Assembly: GCF_025502585.1 (NCBI RefSeq) | Contig: NZ_CP106679.1 | Coordinates: 3,131,501-3,195,500 of the forward strand | Length of the DNA: 64,000 nucleotides | DNA from: Reichenbachiella agarivorans | Lineage (GTDB): Bacteria > Bacteroidota > Bacteroidia > Cytophagales > Cyclobacteriaceae | Direction: 5' to 3' | Part shown: positions 52,084-60,450 of the stretch, piece by piece | How the letters are laid out: the number at the start of each line of letters is the position of its first letter | Position numbering within the stretch: position 1 is the first letter of the stretch | Made by a program: the position numbers and the translations under genes | Notes under the pieces: generated by a model | Seen by the model: only the letters and a program-made list of their open reading frames with translations | Database searches by the model: none | Told to the model about the DNA's origin: nothing

Positions 52084-55000
52084 ATGACTAAAGAATATCA
52101 AATAGAAGAAAATCTGATTGAGCAACTTAAAGAGCTCAAATACACCTACCGTTCTGATATTATGGACAGGAAGGCGCTTGAACAAAATTTCAAAACGAAA
52201 TTTGAAGCATTGAACCGTGTGCGCTTATCGGAAAGTGAGTTTTTGCGCTTACGAGAAGAAATCATAGAACCTGATGTTTTTGCTGCTTCAAAAAAACTTA
52301 GAGAAAGACAATATTTTCAAAGAGAAGATGGAACGCCTTTGCATTACACTTTGGTCAACATCAAAGATTGGTGTAAAAATGAGTTTGAAGTAATTAGTCA
52401 ATTACGCATCAATACAGAAAACAGCCATCAACGATACGACATCATTTTGCTGATTAATGGCTTGCCTGTTGTCCAAATTGAATTGAAGAAGCTAGATGTT
52501 ACTCACCGCAAGGCCATGCAACAAATTGTGGATTACAAAAATGATCCTGGCAATGGCTATACCAATACGTTGATGTGTTACATGCAGTTGTTCATTGTAA
52601 GTAATGGGTCAAGAACCATTTACTTCTCCAACAATAAGAATCAACACTTTCAATTTAATGCAGACGAACAATTCTTGCCTGTGTATGAATTGGCAGATGT
52701 AAATAACAAAAAGATTAATCGACTGGATTTATTTGCCGAGAAATTCTTGTCTAAGTGCACACTTGGCGAAATGATTAGCAAGTACATGGTATTAGTAGAA
52801 AGCGAACAGAAATTGCTCGTAATGCGACCTTACCAAGTATATGCAGTAAAGGCGATTGTTGATTGTATTAAGGATAACCGTGGAAATGGTTATATCTGGC
52901 ACACCACAGGTAGTGGTAAAACACTGACTTCATTTAAAGCCTCTACGCTTCTAAAAGACAATGCAGACATTGAAAAGTGTTTGTTTGTAGTGGATCGAAA
53001 AGACCTTGATCGTCAAACCCGTGAGGAGTTCAATAAATTTCAGGAAGGCAGTGTAGAAGAAAACACGAACACCGAAACTTTGGTCAGGCGACTACTATCT
53101 ACCGACTATGCAGACAAGGTGATCGTAACCACCATTCAAAAATTAGGCATTGCATTAGATAGCACCAACAAGAAAAACTACAAAGAACGTTTGGAACCAT
53201 TGAGCGACAAACGTATCGTTTTCATTTTTGACGAATGTCACCGTTCGCAGTTTGGAGAAAATCATAAAGCGATTAAAGAGTTCTTCCCCAATGCACAATT
53301 GTTTGGATTTACCGGGACGCCCATTTTTGAGCAAAATGCCACTTATAGACAAATAACAGGTGAAGAAGAAACATTAAAAACCACAGACGCCATTTTTGAA
53401 AAGCAGTTGCACGCTTATACCATTACGCATGCCATAGATGATCAAAACGTACTGAAATTTCATATCGACTACTTTAAGGGAGAAGGCACTGTCACTGCAA
53501 AGCCGGGAGAAACCCTGCCCGTCCGACAGGCGGGGATTGCCCAACAAGCCGTGGCAGAAGCGATTATCGACAAACATAATGCAGCCACCAATCAACGCAA
53601 ATTCAATGCGGTGCTGGCAACTGCCTCTATCAATAATGCCATTGAATATTACCGCATATTAAAGTCGGTTCAAATACAAAAACTAGCAGAAGACCCTGAT
53701 TTTGTTCCGCTCAATATTGCCTGTGTATTTTCTCCTCCAGCTCAGTTGATTGCCCAAGAAGGCGACCAACAAAGCCAAAAGAATGCGGCAGACATTAAGC
53801 AACTTCAGGAAGACTTAGCACAGGAGAAGGAAGACAACAAGCATAACCCTGAAGAGAAGAAACAAGCCCTGATAGAAATCATAGCCGATTATAACCAACA
53901 GTTTGGCACCAATCACGACATCAACAATTTTGATATCTACTATCAGGACATACAAAGACGAATCAAAGACCAAAAATATAGCAACAAAGATTATCCGCAC
54001 AAAAACAAGATTGATCTGACCATAGTGGTGGACATGCTGCTCACAGGGTTTGATTCTAAATACCTGAATACACTGTATGTGGACAAGAACCTGAAATACC
54101 ACGGACTGATTCAAGCGTTTTCACGAACCAATCGGGTGTTGAACGACACCAAGCCTTATGGGAATGTACTCGATTTCCGTTCGCAACAAGAAGCAGTAAA
54201 TCAGGCGATAACCCTCTTCTCTGGTGAAGAAGGAAGTAAAGCCAAAGAAATTTGGATGGTGGATCCTGCTCCAGTGGTGATTGACCAATACCAAAAGGCA
54301 GTGGAAGCCTTGGGCGATTTTATGAAAGAACACAACTTGGTAAACGAACCACAGGAAGTGTACAACCTGCGTGGAGATGCTGCTAAGATTGCATTCGTAA
54401 AAAACTTTAAGGAAGTGCAACGCCTAAAGACCCAACTCGACCAATACACCGATTTGGATAAAGAACAGCAAGAAACCATTGAAGGCATTCTGCCAAAAAA
54501 CAACTATCAAGAATTCAAAAGTTCCTATTTAGAAACAGCAAAAGCATTCAAAAAAAGGCAAGAGAAAGAAGGGGAAGATGCACCCGAAGACATTCAACAA
54601 TTAGATTTTGAGTTTGTCCTCTTCGCCTCCGCGGTGATTGATTACGATTACATCATACGCTTGATTGCCGATAGCACTCAGCAAAAGCCCTCTAAGCAGA
54701 AAATGACTGATTCACAACTCATCAGTTTGTTGAAATCCAATGCTAACCTGATGGACGAAGAGGAAGACTTAACCGATTTTATAAAACAGCTAGACAGGTC
54801 TAGAGGGTATAGCGTTGAAGATGTTTACAACATGGTCGAAACCTTTAAAGTAGAGAAATACGACAAAGAACTGGCTGCCATTGCCAATGCAAATGGTTTG
54901 AAAACAGCAGACCTAAAAGCATTTGTAGAACAGATTATGAGCCGAATGATTTTTGACGGGGAAAAACTCACTGACCTGATGGAGCCTTTGGAACTCGGCT

Positions 55001-55107
55001 GGAAACAGCGCAGCAAAGCTGAAACCGCCTTGATGAACGACTTAGTACCTCAACTCAAGAAATTGGCAGGCGATAGAGAGATTAGCGGATTGGTCGCTTA
55101 TGAATAA
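52084..55107 (+). CDS. hsdR: type I restriction enzyme, R (endonuclease/translocase) subunit
   Basis: A 1007-residue motor-nuclease subunit that translocates and cuts unmodified DNA. The PD-(D/E)xK nuclease is Asp119, Glu133 and Lys135 (RYDIILL, QIELKK). The SF2 helicase part has Walker A HTTGSGKTLTSF (from residue 273), DECHR (383) and GFTGTP (about 408), then FSRTNRV near residue 680. A C-terminal helical region binds the methylase core. All key residues look intact. Residues 478-484 (LPVRQAG), between helicase motifs, come from a GC-rich palindrome and look like a small in-frame insertion. Confidence 0.96.
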   Translation: MTKEYQIEENLIEQLKELKYTYRSDIMDRKALEQNFKTKFEALNRVRLSESEFLRLREEIIEPDVFAASKKLRERQYFQREDGTPLHYTLVNIKDWCKNEFEVISQLRINTENSHQRYDIILLINGLPVVQIELKKLDVTHRKAMQQIVDYKNDPGNGYTNTLMCYMQLFIVSNGSRTIYFSNNKNQHFQFNADEQFLPVYELADVNNKKINRLDLFAEKFLSKCTLGEMISKYMVLVESEQKLLVMRPYQVYAVKAIVDCIKDNRGNGYIWHTTGSGKTLTSFKASTLLKDNADIEKCLFVVDRKDLDRQTREEFNKFQEGSVEENTNTETLVRRLLSTDYADKVIVTTIQKLGIALDSTNKKNYKERLEPLSDKRIVFIFDECHRSQFGENHKAIKEFFPNAQLFGFTGTPIFEQNATYRQITGEEETLKTTDAIFEKQLHAYTITHAIDDQNVLKFHIDYFKGEGTVTAKPGETLPVRQAGIAQQAVAEAIIDKHNAATNQRKFNAVLATASINNAIEYYRILKSVQIQKLAEDPDFVPLNIACVFSPPAQLIAQEGDQQSQKNAADIKQLQEDLAQEKEDNKHNPEEKKQALIEIIADYNQQFGTNHDINNFDIYYQDIQRRIKDQKYSNKDYPHKNKIDLTIVVDMLLTGFDSKYLNTLYVDKNLKYHGLIQAFSRTNRVLNDTKPYGNVLDFRSQQEAVNQAITLFSGEEGSKAKEIWMVDPAPVVIDQYQKAVEALGDFMKEHNLVNEPQEVYNLRGDAAKIAFVKNFKEVQRLKTQLDQYTDLDKEQQETIEGILPKNNYQEFKSSYLETAKAFKKRQEKEGEDAPEDIQQLDFEFVLFASAVIDYDYIIRLIADSTQQKPSKQKMTDSQLISLLKSNANLMDEEEDLTDFIKQLDRSRGYSVEDVYNMVETFKVEKYDKELAAIANANGLKTADLKAFVEQIMSRMIFDGEKLTDLMEPLELGWKQRSKAETALMNDLVPQLKKLAGDREISGLVAYE
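53513..53535. repeat. GC-rich palindrome inside hsdR encoding LPVRQAG
   Basis: CCCTGCCCGTC (53513-53523) and GACAGGCGGGG (53525-53535) are 11-base arms matching at 9 of 11 positions, in an otherwise AT-rich gene. The encoded residues lie in a linker between helicase motifs. It looks like one of the short palindromic repeats seen in genomes of Bacteroidota. Confidence 0.6.
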
Positions 55108-55109
55108 TT

Positions 55110-55598
55110 GTCTGAATTAGGATTGATATGATTAAAGGATAATAAGGTTATAAAGGAAGGATTTTGAAACACGAAGAATTAACGCATAAGATAATAGGCT
55201 GTGCAATGAAGGTGCATAGCACATTGGGTAATGGGTTTCAGGAGGTCATTTATCAGCGTGCTTTGGCTATTGAAATGGAGAATCAGGGTTTGGGTTATCA
55301 GCGGGAAATGCAAATGACCATTTTCTACGAAGGCATTGAGATTGGTACGCGTAGAGTCGATTTTTTCGTGGAAGACAACATCATGGTGGAGTTAAAAGCA
55401 TTGATAAAATTGGAGGAGGTGCACTTAGCACAAGCCATGAATTACTGTCATGCCTACAACCTGCCCATCGGACTCCTAATAAATTTTGGAGCAAAAAGCC
55501 TGGAGTTCAAGCGAGTTTATAATGTAAATCACCAGGAAAACGAAGCTTACAAGAAAGAAATCCTAAAATCATCCCATCCTAAAAATCCTAATTCAGAC
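55110..55598. mobile_element. GxxExxY element bounded by 15-bp terminal inverted repeats
   Basis: GTCTGAATTAGGATT at 55110-55124 is the exact reverse complement of AATCCTAATTCAGAC at 55584-55598. The arms continue as an imperfect inverted repeat for about 15 more bases (ATTAAAGGAT on the left against ATCCTAAAAT on the right). The 489-bp unit holds only the GxxExxY gene and sits exactly between hsdR and hsdS. No transposase is encoded, so any movement would need help from elsewhere. No clear target-site duplication is seen. Confidence 0.7.
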
Positions 55599-55604
55599 CA
55601 ATGA
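55164..55604 (+). CDS. GxxExxY protein (PDDEXK-like)
   Basis: A 146-residue protein with the naming motif GFQEVIY in LGNGFQEVIYQRAL and a nuclease-like core with RVDFFVEDNIMVELKA (Asp, then Glu-x-Lys). The family is predicted to share the PD-(D/E)xK fold but has no known function. The start is TTG 55164, supported by AAGGAAGG (55153-55160) as a ribosome-binding site; ATG 55205 would remove part of the fold. The last codons are formed by the right inverted repeat of the element, and the stop overlaps hsdS ATG by 4 bp. Confidence 0.85.
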   Translation: MKHEELTHKIIGCAMKVHSTLGNGFQEVIYQRALAIEMENQGLGYQREMQMTIFYEGIEIGTRRVDFFVEDNIMVELKALIKLEEVHLAQAMNYCHAYNLPIGLLINFGAKSLEFKRVYNVNHQENEAYKKEILKSSHPKNPNSDQ

Positions 55605-56974
55605 GTAAGGAGAAAAAATTAATACCAGCGTTGCGGTTTCCTGAGTTTGTGAAGGATGGGGAGTGGGGGGAGAATACTTTGGAGGAAGTTGCAACATTCA
55701 CAAAGGGTAAGGGCGTATCAAAAGCCGATATCGTTGTAAATGGAAAATTGCCTTGTATTAGATATGGTGAACTTTATACCCATTATAATGAAACAATAAG
55801 AGATATTAAGTCATATACCAATTTAGACGCCAAAGATTTAGTTTTAAGTGAAGGTAACGATGTGATTATTCCTGCATCTGGTGAAACTCAAATTGATATT
55901 GCAACTGCTTCTTGTGTTCTGGAAGCAGGAATTGCGCTCGGTGGTGATTTGAATATCATCAGAACAAAGATAAATGGGGTTTTTCTTGCCTACTATTTAA
56001 GTAATGCTAAGAAAAAAGATATTGCAACAATGGCTCAGGGGATTGCAGTTGTCCATCTATACCCGAATCAGCTAAAGACATTATTGATAAATATTCCCAA
56101 ACCCCAAGAACAACAAAAAATCGCCTCCTGTCTTTCTTCTTTAGATGAGCTGCTAGCTGCCCACAACGATAAGCTGGACGCCCTCAAAGACCACAAAAAA
56201 GGACTACTGCAAAACCTATTCCCGCAAATGTCTGAATTAGGATTTGCAAGATTAAAGGATGAAAGGATTTATGAAAATGAGGATCATACAATCTTAAAAT
56301 CTACAAATCCTAAAAATCATAATTCAGACAATATTCCCAACTATCGTTTTCCTGAGTTTGAGAAGGATGGGGATTGGGTGGAGACAAGACTTGATCAACA
56401 CATTGAAGTGGTCTCAGGGTATGCATTTAAAAGTGAATTTTTTTCAGAGAAAGGAAGAAAACTAGTAACTCCAAAAAACTTTACAAAGGAAGGGAAAGCA
56501 AGCTTTGATGAAAGAAATACGAAATACACAACTGAAGAGTTTGATTCCAAATACTTATGTGTGGCCGATGATCTTCTACTATTATTAACGGACTTAACTC
56601 CATCATGTGAGCTTCTTGGTAAACCTATTCTTTTGAAACAAGAAGATGGAGAGGTATTACTAAACCAGCGGATAGTAAAGGTAGGAATTAAGTCAAATCT
56701 TAATAAGAGATTTCTGTTACAATTTTTCCTAACTAATCACTTTCACAGGAGAGTAAAAAGCACCGCTTCGGGTACTACAGTTCGTCATAGTTCTAATAAA
56801 ATAATACTAGAAACAGATCTATTATTACCTGACAACCCTGCGGAACAGCAAAAGATAGCTTCCTGTCTTTCAGCAGTAGATGAACTTATCACTGCCCAAG
56901 CGGAGAAAATAGCGCAATTGCAATTGCATAAAAAGGGATTGATGCAGGGATTGTTTCCTAAGCTTAACAAGTAA
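55601..56974 (+). CDS. hsdS: type I restriction enzyme, S (specificity) subunit
   Basis: A 457-residue DNA-recognition subunit with two target-recognition halves. Both halves start alike (RFPEFVKDGEWGENTLEEV and RFPEFEKDGDWVETRLDQH) and end alike in a conserved helix (QQKIASCLSSLDELLAAH / QQKIASCLSAVDELITAQ, then HKKGLLQNLFP / HKKGLMQGLFP). Between them, residues about 210-243 are encoded by a 100-bp repeat element with its own inverted termini. This lies where spacer length sets the gap in the recognised site, so the insertion may have changed specificity (inference). The frame is intact. Confidence 0.95.
   Translation: MSKEKKLIPALRFPEFVKDGEWGENTLEEVATFTKGKGVSKADIVVNGKLPCIRYGELYTHYNETIRDIKSYTNLDAKDLVLSEGNDVIIPASGETQIDIATASCVLEAGIALGGDLNIIRTKINGVFLAYYLSNAKKKDIATMAQGIAVVHLYPNQLKTLLINIPKPQEQQKIASCLSSLDELLAAHNDKLDALKDHKKGLLQNLFPQMSELGFARLKDERIYENEDHTILKSTNPKNHNSDNIPNYRFPEFEKDGDWVETRLDQHIEVVSGYAFKSEFFSEKGRKLVTPKNFTKEGKASFDERNTKYTTEEFDSKYLCVADDLLLLLTDLTPSCELLGKPILLKQEDGEVLLNQRIVKVGIKSNLNKRFLLQFFLTNHFHRRVKSTASGTTVRHSSNKIILETDLLLPDNPAEQQKIASCLSAVDELITAQAEKIAQLQLHKKGLMQGLFPKLNK
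56230..56329. repeat. 100-bp MITE-like relative of the GxxExxY element, inside hsdS
   Basis: The left end GTCTGAATTAGGATT (56230-56244) is identical to that of the GxxExxY element, followed by a shared GATTAAAGGAT. The right end AATCATAATTCAGAC (56315-56329) matches the inverse at 14 of 15 positions, and the last 39 bases resemble the right end at 55560-55598. The interior gene is missing, so it is an internally deleted or minimal form. It is fully translated within hsdS. AAT lies on both sides, a possible 3-bp target duplication. Confidence 0.72.
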
Positions 56975-56977
56975 AAA

Positions 56978-57967
56978 ATGAGTGATTTAGTACCAAGTAG
57001 CCATTTTATACTCTACACTACCCCCAAAGGAGAAGTGCGGTTGAGCGTGCTTTTGGAAAATGAAACCATTTGGCTTACCCAGGAGCAAATGAGTACTTTG
57101 TTTGAGCGAGAGCGCAGTGTCATTACCAAGCACATCGGCAATGTGTTCAGTGAGGGTGAGCTCGAAGAAAAAAGCAATGTGCAAATTTTGCACATTAGTG
57201 GTTCTGATCGTCCCGTCAAGTGCTACAACCTGGATGTAATCATTTCGGTAGGCTACCGTGTGAAGTCGCAGAGAGGCACCCAATTCAGGATTTGGGCTAC
57301 TCAAAAATTAAAAGAGTATATCATCAAGGGATTCGTCATGGATGATGAACGCCTGAAACAAGGAGAAACTGTTTTTGGCAAAGATTATTTTAAAGAGTTA
57401 TTAGAGCGTGTTCGTTCCATTCGTGCTAGTGAGCGCAGGATTTACCAGCAGATTACGGACATTTTTGCAGAATGCAGCATCGATTACGACCCACAATCTG
57501 AGATCACCCACGGTTTTTATGCCATGGTGCAAAACAAATTTCATTTTGCCATCACAGGGCAGACCGCAGCAGAAATTGTTTGCAAAAATGCTGACGCTAC
57601 GAAGCAAAATATGGGCCTCACCACATGGAAAAATGCTCCAGTTGGCCGAATCCTAAAATCTGATGCCTCCATAGCCAAAAACTATTTGCAAGAAAAAGAA
57701 ATAAAACAACTGGAAAGAACGGTTTCGGGCTATTTCGACTATATCGAGAATTTGATAGAACGAGAAAACACGTTTACGATGACTGGTTTGGCAAACAGCG
57801 TAGATAAATTTTTGAATTTCAATGAATTCAAGGTTTTGGAAGGAAAAGGATCTATGTCCCATCAACAGGCTGTTGAAAAAGCAGGAAAGGAATATGAGCA
57901 ATTCAATAAGTCTCAAAAAATCATCTCTGATTTTGATAAAGAAATCAAGAAACTCAAAGGGAAATAA
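56978..57967 (+). CDS. RhuM family protein
   Basis: A 329-residue member of the virulence RhuM family. An N-terminal HTH-like part (ETIWLTQEQMSTLFERERSV, about residues 28-47) is followed by the family core: NLDVIISVGYRVKSQRGTQF, FRIWATQKLKEYIIKGF and FAITGQTAAEIVCKNAD. RhuM was named from a Salmonella pathogenicity island; the molecular role is unknown, but the genes often lie inside type I restriction loci. It starts 3 bp after hsdS stops and its stop is directly followed by hsdM ATG. Confidence 0.93.
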   Translation: MSDLVPSSHFILYTTPKGEVRLSVLLENETIWLTQEQMSTLFERERSVITKHIGNVFSEGELEEKSNVQILHISGSDRPVKCYNLDVIISVGYRVKSQRGTQFRIWATQKLKEYIIKGFVMDDERLKQGETVFGKDYFKELLERVRSIRASERRIYQQITDIFAECSIDYDPQSEITHGFYAMVQNKFHFAITGQTAAEIVCKNADATKQNMGLTTWKNAPVGRILKSDASIAKNYLQEKEIKQLERTVSGYFDYIENLIERENTFTMTGLANSVDKFLNFNEFKVLEGKGSMSHQQAVEKAGKEYEQFNKSQKIISDFDKEIKKLKGK

Positions 57968-59623
57968 ATGGCACAAAAAGAACAACACAAAAAACTAGGC
58001 GATACACTTTGGCGAATTGCAAATGATCTAAGAGGTGCCATGAATGCGGATGATTTCCGTGATTACATGCTTTCATTTTTATTTTTACGCTACCTATCGC
58101 ACAATTACGAAGAGTCCGCCAAAAAGGAGCTTGGGAAAGACTATCCCGAAAATACTCCAGAGGAGAAAAGAACGGACGGGTTTGTGCCACCACCACTTGA
58201 GAAATGGTATGAAACCAATGAGGGAGATGTTCCTGAATTTGAAAAGCAAATGCGCAGGAAAGTGCATTATGTGATCAAACCTACATATCTATGGAGTAAC
58301 ATCACAGAATTAGCACGTACTCATAACGCAGAACTGTTAGAAACGCTCGGAGAGGGCTTTCGACATATCGAAAACGAATCTTTTGAAAGCAGCTTTCAGG
58401 GCCTGTTCTCAGAGATCAACCTGAACTCTGAAAAACTCGGAAGAACACCTCAGGACAGAAACAAAAAGCTCTGTACCATCATCCAGAAAATCGCAGAAGG
58501 CATTGCTGATTTCTCTGCCGATACCGACACCCTGGGCGATGCGTATGAGTATTTAATCGGTCAGTTTGCAGCGGGTTCGGGCAAAAAGGCAGGGGAGTTT
58601 TATACGCCTCAACAAATCTCAACGATCCTTTCAGAGATTGTGACCTTAGACAGTCAAGACCCAGCCAACCCTACTGGGCCTAAAAAGAAATTCGACAAAA
58701 TATTGGATTTTGCCTGTGGTTCGGGTTCGTTGCTACTGAATGTCAGAAAGCGGATCAAAGACAATGACGGTACTGTAGGCAAAATTTATGGACAGGAAAA
58801 TAATATAACTACCTACAACCTGGCTCGAATGAACATGCTCTTGCATGGCATGAAAGACACAGAGTTTGAAATCTATCACGGCGACACTTTAAAAAACCAA
58901 TGGGGTATTCTAAACGAAATGAATCCCTCCAAGAAAACAGAATTTGATGCCATTGTAGCCAATCCACCTTTTAGTTTGCGATGGGAACCCAACGATACCA
59001 TGGCGGAAGATTTCCGATTCAAAAGCTATGGTTTAGCACCCAAGTCAGCGGCCGATTTTTCTTTCTTGTTACACGGTTTTCATTTCCTAAGTCAAGCAGG
59101 CACAATGGCCATCATTTTGCCACACGGAGTTTTATTCCGTGGAGGAGCAGAGGAGCGCATCCGCACCAAACTTCTGAAAGACAAAAACATTGATACCGTC
59201 ATTGGTTTGCCTGCTAATTTGTTTTACTCCACAGGCATTCCGGTTTGTATTCTCGTACTGAAGAAATGTAAAAAGCAAGATGATGTATTGTTCATCAATG
59301 CCAGTGAGCATTTTGAAAAGGATGGACGTTTGAATCGCTTGCGTGAAGGAGAAGATGATGAACCGAATGACATTCAAAGCATTGTAGAAACCTACAAATA
59401 CAGAAGGGAGGCAGAACGCTATTCTCGTCGAGTGTCCATGGAAGAAATCGAATCCAATGGCTACAACCTGAATATCTCAAGGTATGTGAGTACATCAGAA
59501 GACGAAATACAAATTGACTTAAAAGAGGTCAATGATAAATTGATAGACATAGAAAAGAAAATCAACAAAGCAAGAGACGAGCACAATGCATTTTTGAAGG
59601 AGTTGGGGTTGCCGAAGATATGA
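57968..59623 (+). CDS. hsdM: type I restriction enzyme, M (adenine methylase) subunit
   Basis: A 551-residue N6-adenine DNA methylase. The N-terminal HsdM helical domain spans residues about 5-150. The catalytic part has the S-adenosylmethionine motif DFACGSGSLLLN (Asp247 onward) and the active-site motif NPPF at 332-335. The C-terminal coiled coil (KEVNDKLIDIEKKINKARDE) contacts HsdS. With HsdS it protects the host DNA. Placed last in the locus, an unusual order, since hsdM more often precedes hsdS. No terminator is seen after it; the 22-bp repeat array begins 110 bp downstream. Confidence 0.96.
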   Translation: MAQKEQHKKLGDTLWRIANDLRGAMNADDFRDYMLSFLFLRYLSHNYEESAKKELGKDYPENTPEEKRTDGFVPPPLEKWYETNEGDVPEFEKQMRRKVHYVIKPTYLWSNITELARTHNAELLETLGEGFRHIENESFESSFQGLFSEINLNSEKLGRTPQDRNKKLCTIIQKIAEGIADFSADTDTLGDAYEYLIGQFAAGSGKKAGEFYTPQQISTILSEIVTLDSQDPANPTGPKKKFDKILDFACGSGSLLLNVRKRIKDNDGTVGKIYGQENNITTYNLARMNMLLHGMKDTEFEIYHGDTLKNQWGILNEMNPSKKTEFDAIVANPPFSLRWEPNDTMAEDFRFKSYGLAPKSAADFSFLLHGFHFLSQAGTMAIILPHGVLFRGGAEERIRTKLLKDKNIDTVIGLPANLFYSTGIPVCILVLKKCKKQDDVLFINASEHFEKDGRLNRLREGEDDEPNDIQSIVETYKYRREAERYSRRVSMEEIESNGYNLNISRYVSTSEDEIQIDLKEVNDKLIDIEKKINKARDEHNAFLKELGLPKI

Positions 59624-60450
59624 GATTCGGACAAACTAGAAGTCTGTATTCTAAAGATAAAACAGGTATTAAAGACTCACTGACATAGTACTGGCTAGTT
59701 GAGTATGAACCCCAAATTACCCTCTTCCAAAAACCCGCGCAGGTTTACTCCAAAACATAGTGTGGTTTGTGTGAAAGTCTGCTGTGGTTTGTGCGAAAGT
59801 CTGCCTAGGTTTGGGAGAAAACCTGCCTAGGTTTGTGAGAAAGTCTGCGCGGATTGAGAAAAAGTCTGCACGGGTTTGGGACAAAATCTGCGCGGATTTG
59901 AGAGAAAGTCTGCGCAGATTTGAAGCAAAGTCTGCACGGATTTGAGGCTAAGTCTGCGCAGACTTTGAGGGGTATGTAACTAGGCCCTTTTTGATGACTA
60001 ACCTACTTACTTAACTAATTGAATTACAGTTAGTTAAAGTCTTGAAGTGGAAATTTTACTAAGCACTTGATTTTTAACATATTTTGGCATTTTTTAGTGC
60101 GTTTTTGGAACGGAAATTGTTCTCCACAAAATGTCTTCAGACACATCGAAAAGGCCACTCGATAACCCCGTTTGTCTTCACTCAATTTGGTTAACAGTTC
60201 TGCTGTTTTCATCTCAAGTGTGGACAAGCACCCCGCTTTCGCAAGCACACGCACCGCACAGTCTCACTACGCATAGTTACGACCTAGCAAAGCACCCATT
60301 TGATGCAAGTATCAGTTATTACTTCGCAAAACTCCGACAGGCTTTGTCAGTTTTTGCAAGGTTGACCCTACGCAGAGTAGGAGTGTCCGTGGTACGTCTT
60401 GCCTGCGAAGCAAAGTTGAACTCATTTTTCACATTTTAAATTTTAAAATC
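59624..60450. other. 827-bp non-coding region between hsdM and the HU gene
   Basis: Left part: a 22-bp tandem array (59732-59969). Middle: a TTAACTAA/TTAGTTAA stem (60011-60037, 10 of 11 paired). Right part (about 60150-60430): GC-richer, structured sequence with a GCAAAACT/AGTTTTTGC hairpin (about 60327-60358) and a CCTAC/GTAGG hairpin (about 60367-60381). Two open frames cross it but read as low-quality protein. It may hold a non-coding RNA or a repeat unit; neither can be proved. Confidence 0.5.
59732..59969. repeat. array of about eleven 22-bp degenerate tandem repeats
   Basis: The CTG of the repeated core GTCTGCGCGGATTTGAGAGA recurs at 59779, 59801, 59823, 59845, 59866, 59888, 59910, 59932 and 59954: steps of 22 with one of 21. 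Two weaker copies precede them (about 59735 and 59757). Many units are near-palindromic; the last contains AAGTCTGCGCAGACTT, a perfect 16-bp palindrome. Variation is mostly in the four central bases and the 6-bp spacer. Confidence 0.85.

Follow-up and report, generated by a model that had tools for sequence, protein, structure and literature searches.

The hsdS gene of the window (the whole 64,000-nucleotide stretch of Reichenbachiella agarivorans DNA that was analysed) contains a 100-bp imperfect palindrome at 56230-56329. This palindrome is a member of a dispersed family, is an insertion relative to homologous genes, and leaves the reading frame open, as do its counterparts in several lineages. 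We consider it probable that the palindrome inserted in frame and is tolerated in a flexible linker of HsdS, with the gap between the two half-sites left unchanged. The window carries a type I restriction-modification locus comprising hsdR, a GxxExxY gene, hsdS, a RhuM-family gene and hsdM, with the following features:

52084-55107, plus strand: hsdR (TIGR00348 above cut-off)
55100-55107, plus strand: ATGAATAA, left of the GxxExxY element; 7 of its 8 bases match 55601-55608 (possible target duplication)
55110-55598, plus strand: GxxExxY element with the same ends as the palindrome (15-bp end match)
55164-55604, plus strand: GxxExxY gene, PD-(D/E)XK superfamily (PF13366 1.3e-39, TIGR04256 1.5e-40)
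55601-55608, plus strand: ATGAGTAA, right of the GxxExxY element (hsdS start)
55601-56974, plus strand: hsdS, type I specificity subunit, 457 aa (PF01420 [Methylase_S] twice; Foldseek matches to solved S subunits)
56102-56218, plus strand: helix D1 (residues 168-206), before the insert (model, pLDDT approximately 75-80; gap-free in alignment)
56228-56332, plus strand: 35 codons (HsdS residues 210-244) replacing 4 codons of insert-free relatives (linker counts, joints)
56230-56329, plus strand: 100-bp imperfect palindrome (inverted ends; hairpin z -5.4; covariance-model score 98.1 bits, this sequence itself being among the four used to build the model)
56837-56953, plus strand: helix D2 (residues 413-451; model)
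56978-57967: RhuM-family gene, between hsdS and hsdM
57968-59623, plus strand: hsdM (TIGR00497 above cut-off)

Two further repeats were observed in this locus. An array of approximately 22-bp units (AGTCTGCGCGGATTTGAG-like) lies directly after hsdM (window 59742-59959). A second small palindrome, CCTGCCCGTCCGACAGGCGGGG (window 53514-53535), is unrelated to that in hsdS and adds seven residues in frame to HsdR: the protein reads GETLPVRQAGIAQQ at this site, compared to GEAIAQQ in genome G472, GEPIAQQ in UBA9002 and GEAIAEQ in Tangfeifania. The HsdR of Mongoliitalea lutea has a different 7-residue addition at the same position, and one further copy of CCTGCCCGTCCGACAGGCGGGG, with two mismatches, is present in the R. 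agarivorans genome.

The hsdS palindrome has GTCTGAATTAGGATT at its start and, with one mismatch, the inverse of this sequence at its end; it lies in frame within the 457-codon open reading frame 55601-56974. It is predicted to form a single long hairpin of -26.7 kcal/mol (z -5.4), a stability that no shuffled sequence out of 200 reached. The 15-bp ends are common to the GxxExxY element at 55110-55598, where they have no mismatches. With up to one mismatch allowed, the 15-bp end occurs at five places in the R. agarivorans genome (4.47 Mb, one contig): the two palindrome ends, the two GxxExxY element ends and one lone site. An in-frame 100-bp element whose ends match those of the GxxExxY element had been described in an earlier note on this DNA, and both the inverted ends and the hairpin bear out that description. 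The note further regarded the palindrome as this element with its interior deleted, which is only one possible view. A complete palindrome of 94-100 bp is found at the hsdS side of the GxxExxY element in both M. lutea and UBA9002, and the short palindrome is thus a separate unit.

The family to which this unit belongs (GTCTGAA...TTCAGAC) consists of approximately 80-130-bp imperfect palindromes of Bacteroidota. Because a search of 395 phylum genomes with the exact two-ended pattern found it only in the R. agarivorans genome, a covariance model was used. This model, built from four copies located at hsdS, has matches at E≤0.01 in 31 of 295 sampled class genomes (carrier genomes). The ends are alike in sixteen copies fetched from G669 and G615, which are 68-94% identical within a genome. 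Agreement between the two arms of one copy (0.779) is higher than agreement with the arms of other copies (0.639; p 5e-5, 20 copies, these being the 20 of 29 class loci that remain when nine without clean ends are excluded). In 14 of the 16 G669 and G615 copies, which are close to each other, this difference was not significant (0.921 vs 0.907, p 0.06).

In 14 of 49 rows, some open frame runs through the element, and in five of these it has at least 50 residues on each side (the 49 rows represent 47 sites, as L081 = L158 and L091 = L167 were counted twice). These five hosts comprise an HsdM, an HsdS of a different kind, an EttA-like ABC-F protein, a PF01555 DNA methylase, and a protein that combines N6_Mtase and Methylase_S domains. 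In the other-kind HsdS, the copy again follows the first recognition domain and helix (read by eye). The copy in the EttA-like protein (L083:1501-1592) follows the second ATPase domain and precedes the C-terminal domain. A single obligatory reading phase was considered and dropped, as two phases are in use at the 5' end among these and the other in-frame copies (letters read by eye). Restriction-modification proteins carry or adjoin a copy at seven of 29 loci (L080, L085, L086, L087, L093, L104 and L106), and Methylase_S and N6_Mtase account for five and four, respectively, of the 81 ORFs neighbouring model matches. Neither family is among the 25 listed of 99 families from 60 ORFs of 20 control regions, nor among the 25 listed of 112 families from 114 ORFs at 30 GxxExxY loci, although single matches are possible in both sets. 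This excess may be partly built in, since the model derives from hsdS copies. RhuM-family proteins were also observed among these neighbours (4 of 81 ORFs).

That the hsdS copy is an insertion is evident from linker lengths. The linker was measured from LFP (the end of helix D1) to [VIL]P before the second recognition domain; 23 of the 28 loci given were read (some are one gene entered twice; L072, L237, L242, L243 and L249 were unreadable), and the counts exclude the other-type HsdS of L055, L057 and L060. It is 35-36 residues long in the window, M. lutea and UBA9002/UBA2365, compared to five in 15 of 16 readable insert-free relatives and 10 in the remaining one (L240). Homologues sharing the linker with unrelated DNA were sought, and these insert-free linkers were found instead. 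The position between the two recognition halves of HsdS given in the earlier note is thus that of an in-frame insertion of a dispersed repeat, for which relatives without the insert exist. Its estimate of approximately 34 added residues requires correction: 35 codons stand for four in the relatives, a net gain of 31 residues.

A query of 66 residues spanning the insert-free joint has matches in 14 of 395 class genomes: the alignment reaches residue 61-65 in 13 other genomes and stops at residue 45 in that of R. agarivorans. G472 has an hsdS whose first half is like that of the window (0.83-0.94 per 100 bp), with neither the insert nor the GxxExxY element, and its hsdR and hsdS overlap. M. lutea KCTC 23224 belongs to the same family, Cyclobacteriaceae, as R. 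agarivorans; the HsdS proteins of M. lutea and UBA9002 have only 38-39% identity to the window HsdS. The right joint (GACAAT, then an IP or VP pair) is common to the window, M. lutea, UBA9002 and Ekhidna. Judging from this joint, the four linker copies probably represent one event, and they are therefore not independent proof of tolerance. Comparison of the window and UBA9002 inserts gives a dN of 0.22 and a dS of 0.28, which is near neutral. A scan of GTDB r220 contigs for LFP[QKR]-like codons directly before the element end identified 12 stretches, six of which (five distinct sequences) are hsdS (L068, L072, L073, L074, L076 and L078); the other six have a short, unrelated frame. Most HsdS of this type lack a copy: over 18 sources, the covariance model produced two weak matches only, one of which (L240) sits just upstream of hsdS. 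An element-like end was also seen by eye just upstream of hsdS in L244.

The earlier note proposed that the insert, by lengthening the spacer between the recognition halves, alters the half-site gap and reshapes specificity. The insert does sit between these halves, and EcoR124I/II offers a case of length variation in the middle of HsdS: in the accessible part of PMC3874165, half-site spacing is set within D1, the dimerisation helix, and a 4-residue (TAEL) repeat there alters the gap. These repeats are inside D1, however, whereas the window insert follows it. In the window model, D1 (168-206) and D2 (413-451) are 39 residues each, as they are in the model of the insert-free Tangfeifania protein (165-203 and 357-395), and the insert appears as coil plus one short low-confidence helix (pLDDT approximately 35-45) after D1. 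Both models are weak (mean pLDDT 52.6 and 60.4, from 5-row alignments), with the helices among their best parts, and no change in D1 or D2 length due to the insert was found in them. D1 also aligns without gaps across five insert-bearing and insert-free proteins, and the window model has nine Foldseek matches at E≤0.001, each of them to a type I S subunit or to a complex containing one. Because the gap is set by the helices and the insert lies past D1, these models suggest that the insert probably leaves the gap unchanged. A gap change was dropped as the leading idea on the basis of the gap-free alignment and the equal modelled helices, and we regard it as quite improbable.

Other explanations for the palindrome are that it is a chance match or an ordinary linker, or that its hairpin acts in the mRNA. 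The sequence is AT-rich, and a pattern search at up to three mismatches gives 206 genome sites compared to 131 for a reversed control pattern, as might be expected for a chance match; against this, the paired ends, the hairpin (z -5.4), the linker lengths and the existence of a dispersed family leave a chance match or an ordinary linker next to no likelihood, and both were ruled out by the hairpin statistics and the linker lengths of relatives. The strong hairpin would be suited to cleavage of the transcript in the manner of 23S rRNA intervening sequences, giving two half subunits or lower expression; RNase III excises intervening sequences shaped as inverted repeats in Coxiella, according to the available text of PMC4990558. 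This seems very unlikely here, as the frame is retained in the window (100 bp), M. lutea (97 bp) and UBA9002 (100 bp), which fits translation through the element.

In several lineages, copies are found repeatedly at three positions of hsdS (5' end, linker and 3' end), and they might serve as recombination handles by which recognition-domain modules are exchanged or duplicated. In the domain movement (DOMO) of H. pylori, repeats flanking recognition domains drive such moves and duplications have been seen, as described in the accessible part of PMC3077401; those repeats are parts of hsdS, whereas the repeat here is a dispersed palindrome. The Ekhidna linker and 3' copies share 98% identity over 83 bp (linker copies of different loci share 72-88%), and Cyclobacteriaceae bacterium KatS3mg032 (L068:3612-3974) has three identical 132-bp tandem units, each consisting of a 99-bp element and the last hsdS codons. 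These two sets of copies show local duplication or conversion, not recognition-domain exchange. The similarity between the window and G472 falls after the element, to 0.31-0.64 in the next seven bins, but S-gene similarity often breaks between recognition domains anyway. Moreover, no strain pair with a swap was seen, and the HsdS proteins of this type that lack a copy are in the majority. We therefore consider a handle function unlikely; it is compatible with an insertion tolerated in the linker and does not exclude it.

The manner in which the palindrome spreads was examined through target duplication and through candidate partner genes. General target duplication was not found: direct repeats scoring at least 5 are present at three of 38 copies (flanks with clean ends) vs 6.1% of cross pairs, and duplication was rejected as a general mark. 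In the hsdR/hsdS region of UBA9002, an exact 8-bp repeat of ATGAGTAA flanks the GxxExxY element (7 of 8 bases in the window), although a repeat at the hsdR-hsdS overlap could also be explained by the need to keep both genes intact. The palindrome is like a MITE, as the earlier note labelled it, in that it is short, dispersed and has inverted ends and a longer gene-bearing relative. This likeness does not extend to target duplication, and GxxExxY is no known transposase; because the duplication is lacking, we have not classified the palindrome as a MITE. The 4-codon replacement and the lack of target duplication at the linker do not look like simple transposition.

At E≤1e-10, 102 of 149 class genomes have TIGR04256, compared to 0 of 14 controls (at 1e-5, one control has a match, which is below the cut-off). 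Inverted arms that exceed the 99th percentile of shuffles are present at 18 of 30 GxxExxY loci in the class sample (cross pairs 16.7%) and 22 of 26 in carrier genomes (cross pairs 10.5%), but at none of 20 control regions (cross pairs 1.3%); these counts exclude L202 (a fragment) and L203 (a short flank). An arm run in which 27 of the 30 loci were readable placed 17 above this percentile. A similar arrangement was observed for PF05635 (23S-IVP) genes: away from any rRNA context, they are enclosed by inverted arms built of iterated short motifs at 18 of 30 loci (L206-L235; above the 99th percentile, cross pairs 4.7%). PF05635 matches occur in 26 of 31 carrier genomes, with seven in that of R. 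agarivorans. We know of no role for either the GxxExxY or the 23S-IVP family. The counts of 18/30, 22/26 and 18/30 vs 0/20 suggest that inverted-arm elements carry many of these genes as cargo.

The left arm of the only GxxExxY gene in G669 can be aligned over 33-40 bases to nine short copies dispersed in that genome, with 32-39 bases in agreement (best 39/39); this is the one genome in which the arms match. Mobilisation of the short copies by GxxExxY may be suggested by this match as a lead only. GxxExxY was not kept as a proven mobiliser, as TIGR04256 was not found in four of 31 carrier genomes (G615, G695, G261 and G756). In a fifth, G708, it is present as a sub-threshold fragment. G615 and G756 are also without PF05635, and G615 nonetheless has 10 model rows.

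Rickettsia provides the best-known examples of in-frame palindromic insertions, and to our knowledge no enzyme has been assigned to the Rickettsia palindromic elements (RPEs). RPEs are short palindromic repeats of approximately 150 bp that are partly in frame in protein genes (available text of PMC10969869). The palindrome described here is likewise found in frame in unrelated proteins (hsdS, HsdM, DNA methylase, HsdM-S protein and ABC-F protein); it differs in its phylum and in having a longer, GxxExxY-bearing relative with matching ends. The best reading is that it works like an RPE tolerated in a linker; this likeness is one of features, and we have not classified the palindrome as an RPE. 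The 23S rRNA intervening sequence with its IVP/S23 gene is also a small element, with one small gene enclosed by inverted arms, but the protein family is different, and 56230-56329 lies in the protein gene hsdS and not in 23S rRNA, the location of intervening sequences. We recognised no published account of this palindrome in hsdS or of GxxExxY elements, a weak negative given that subscription literature was scarcely covered.

For the insertion tolerated in the linker, we propose the following course. The 100-bp unit is one copy of the family and is related through its ends to the longer GxxExxY-bearing elements. Such a copy would have entered this hsdS lineage where helix D1 joins the second recognition domain, displacing four codons. 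In-frame open forms would have been kept because this joint is a flexible linker, and the peptide (net +31 residues) would be translated as an unstructured extension. The half-site gap, being set by the helices, should stay as before, and specificity with it. More speculatively, and in our opinion doubtfully, GxxExxY genes (encoding a PD-(D/E)XK protein, no known transposase) might mark a class of small mobile elements of Bacteroidota that spread in palindromic form; their short copies would lodge at the hsdS joints, persist there through being readable in frame, and act as recombination handles in the shuffling of recognition domains.

The inference that length added between the HsdS recognition halves must alter the gap in the DNA site is a tempting one, but such an addition need not do so. 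The same kind of in-frame insertion as in Rickettsia is now seen in Bacteroidota, where a nuclease-superfamily gene in the longer element of matching ends provides a direct candidate for the enzyme.
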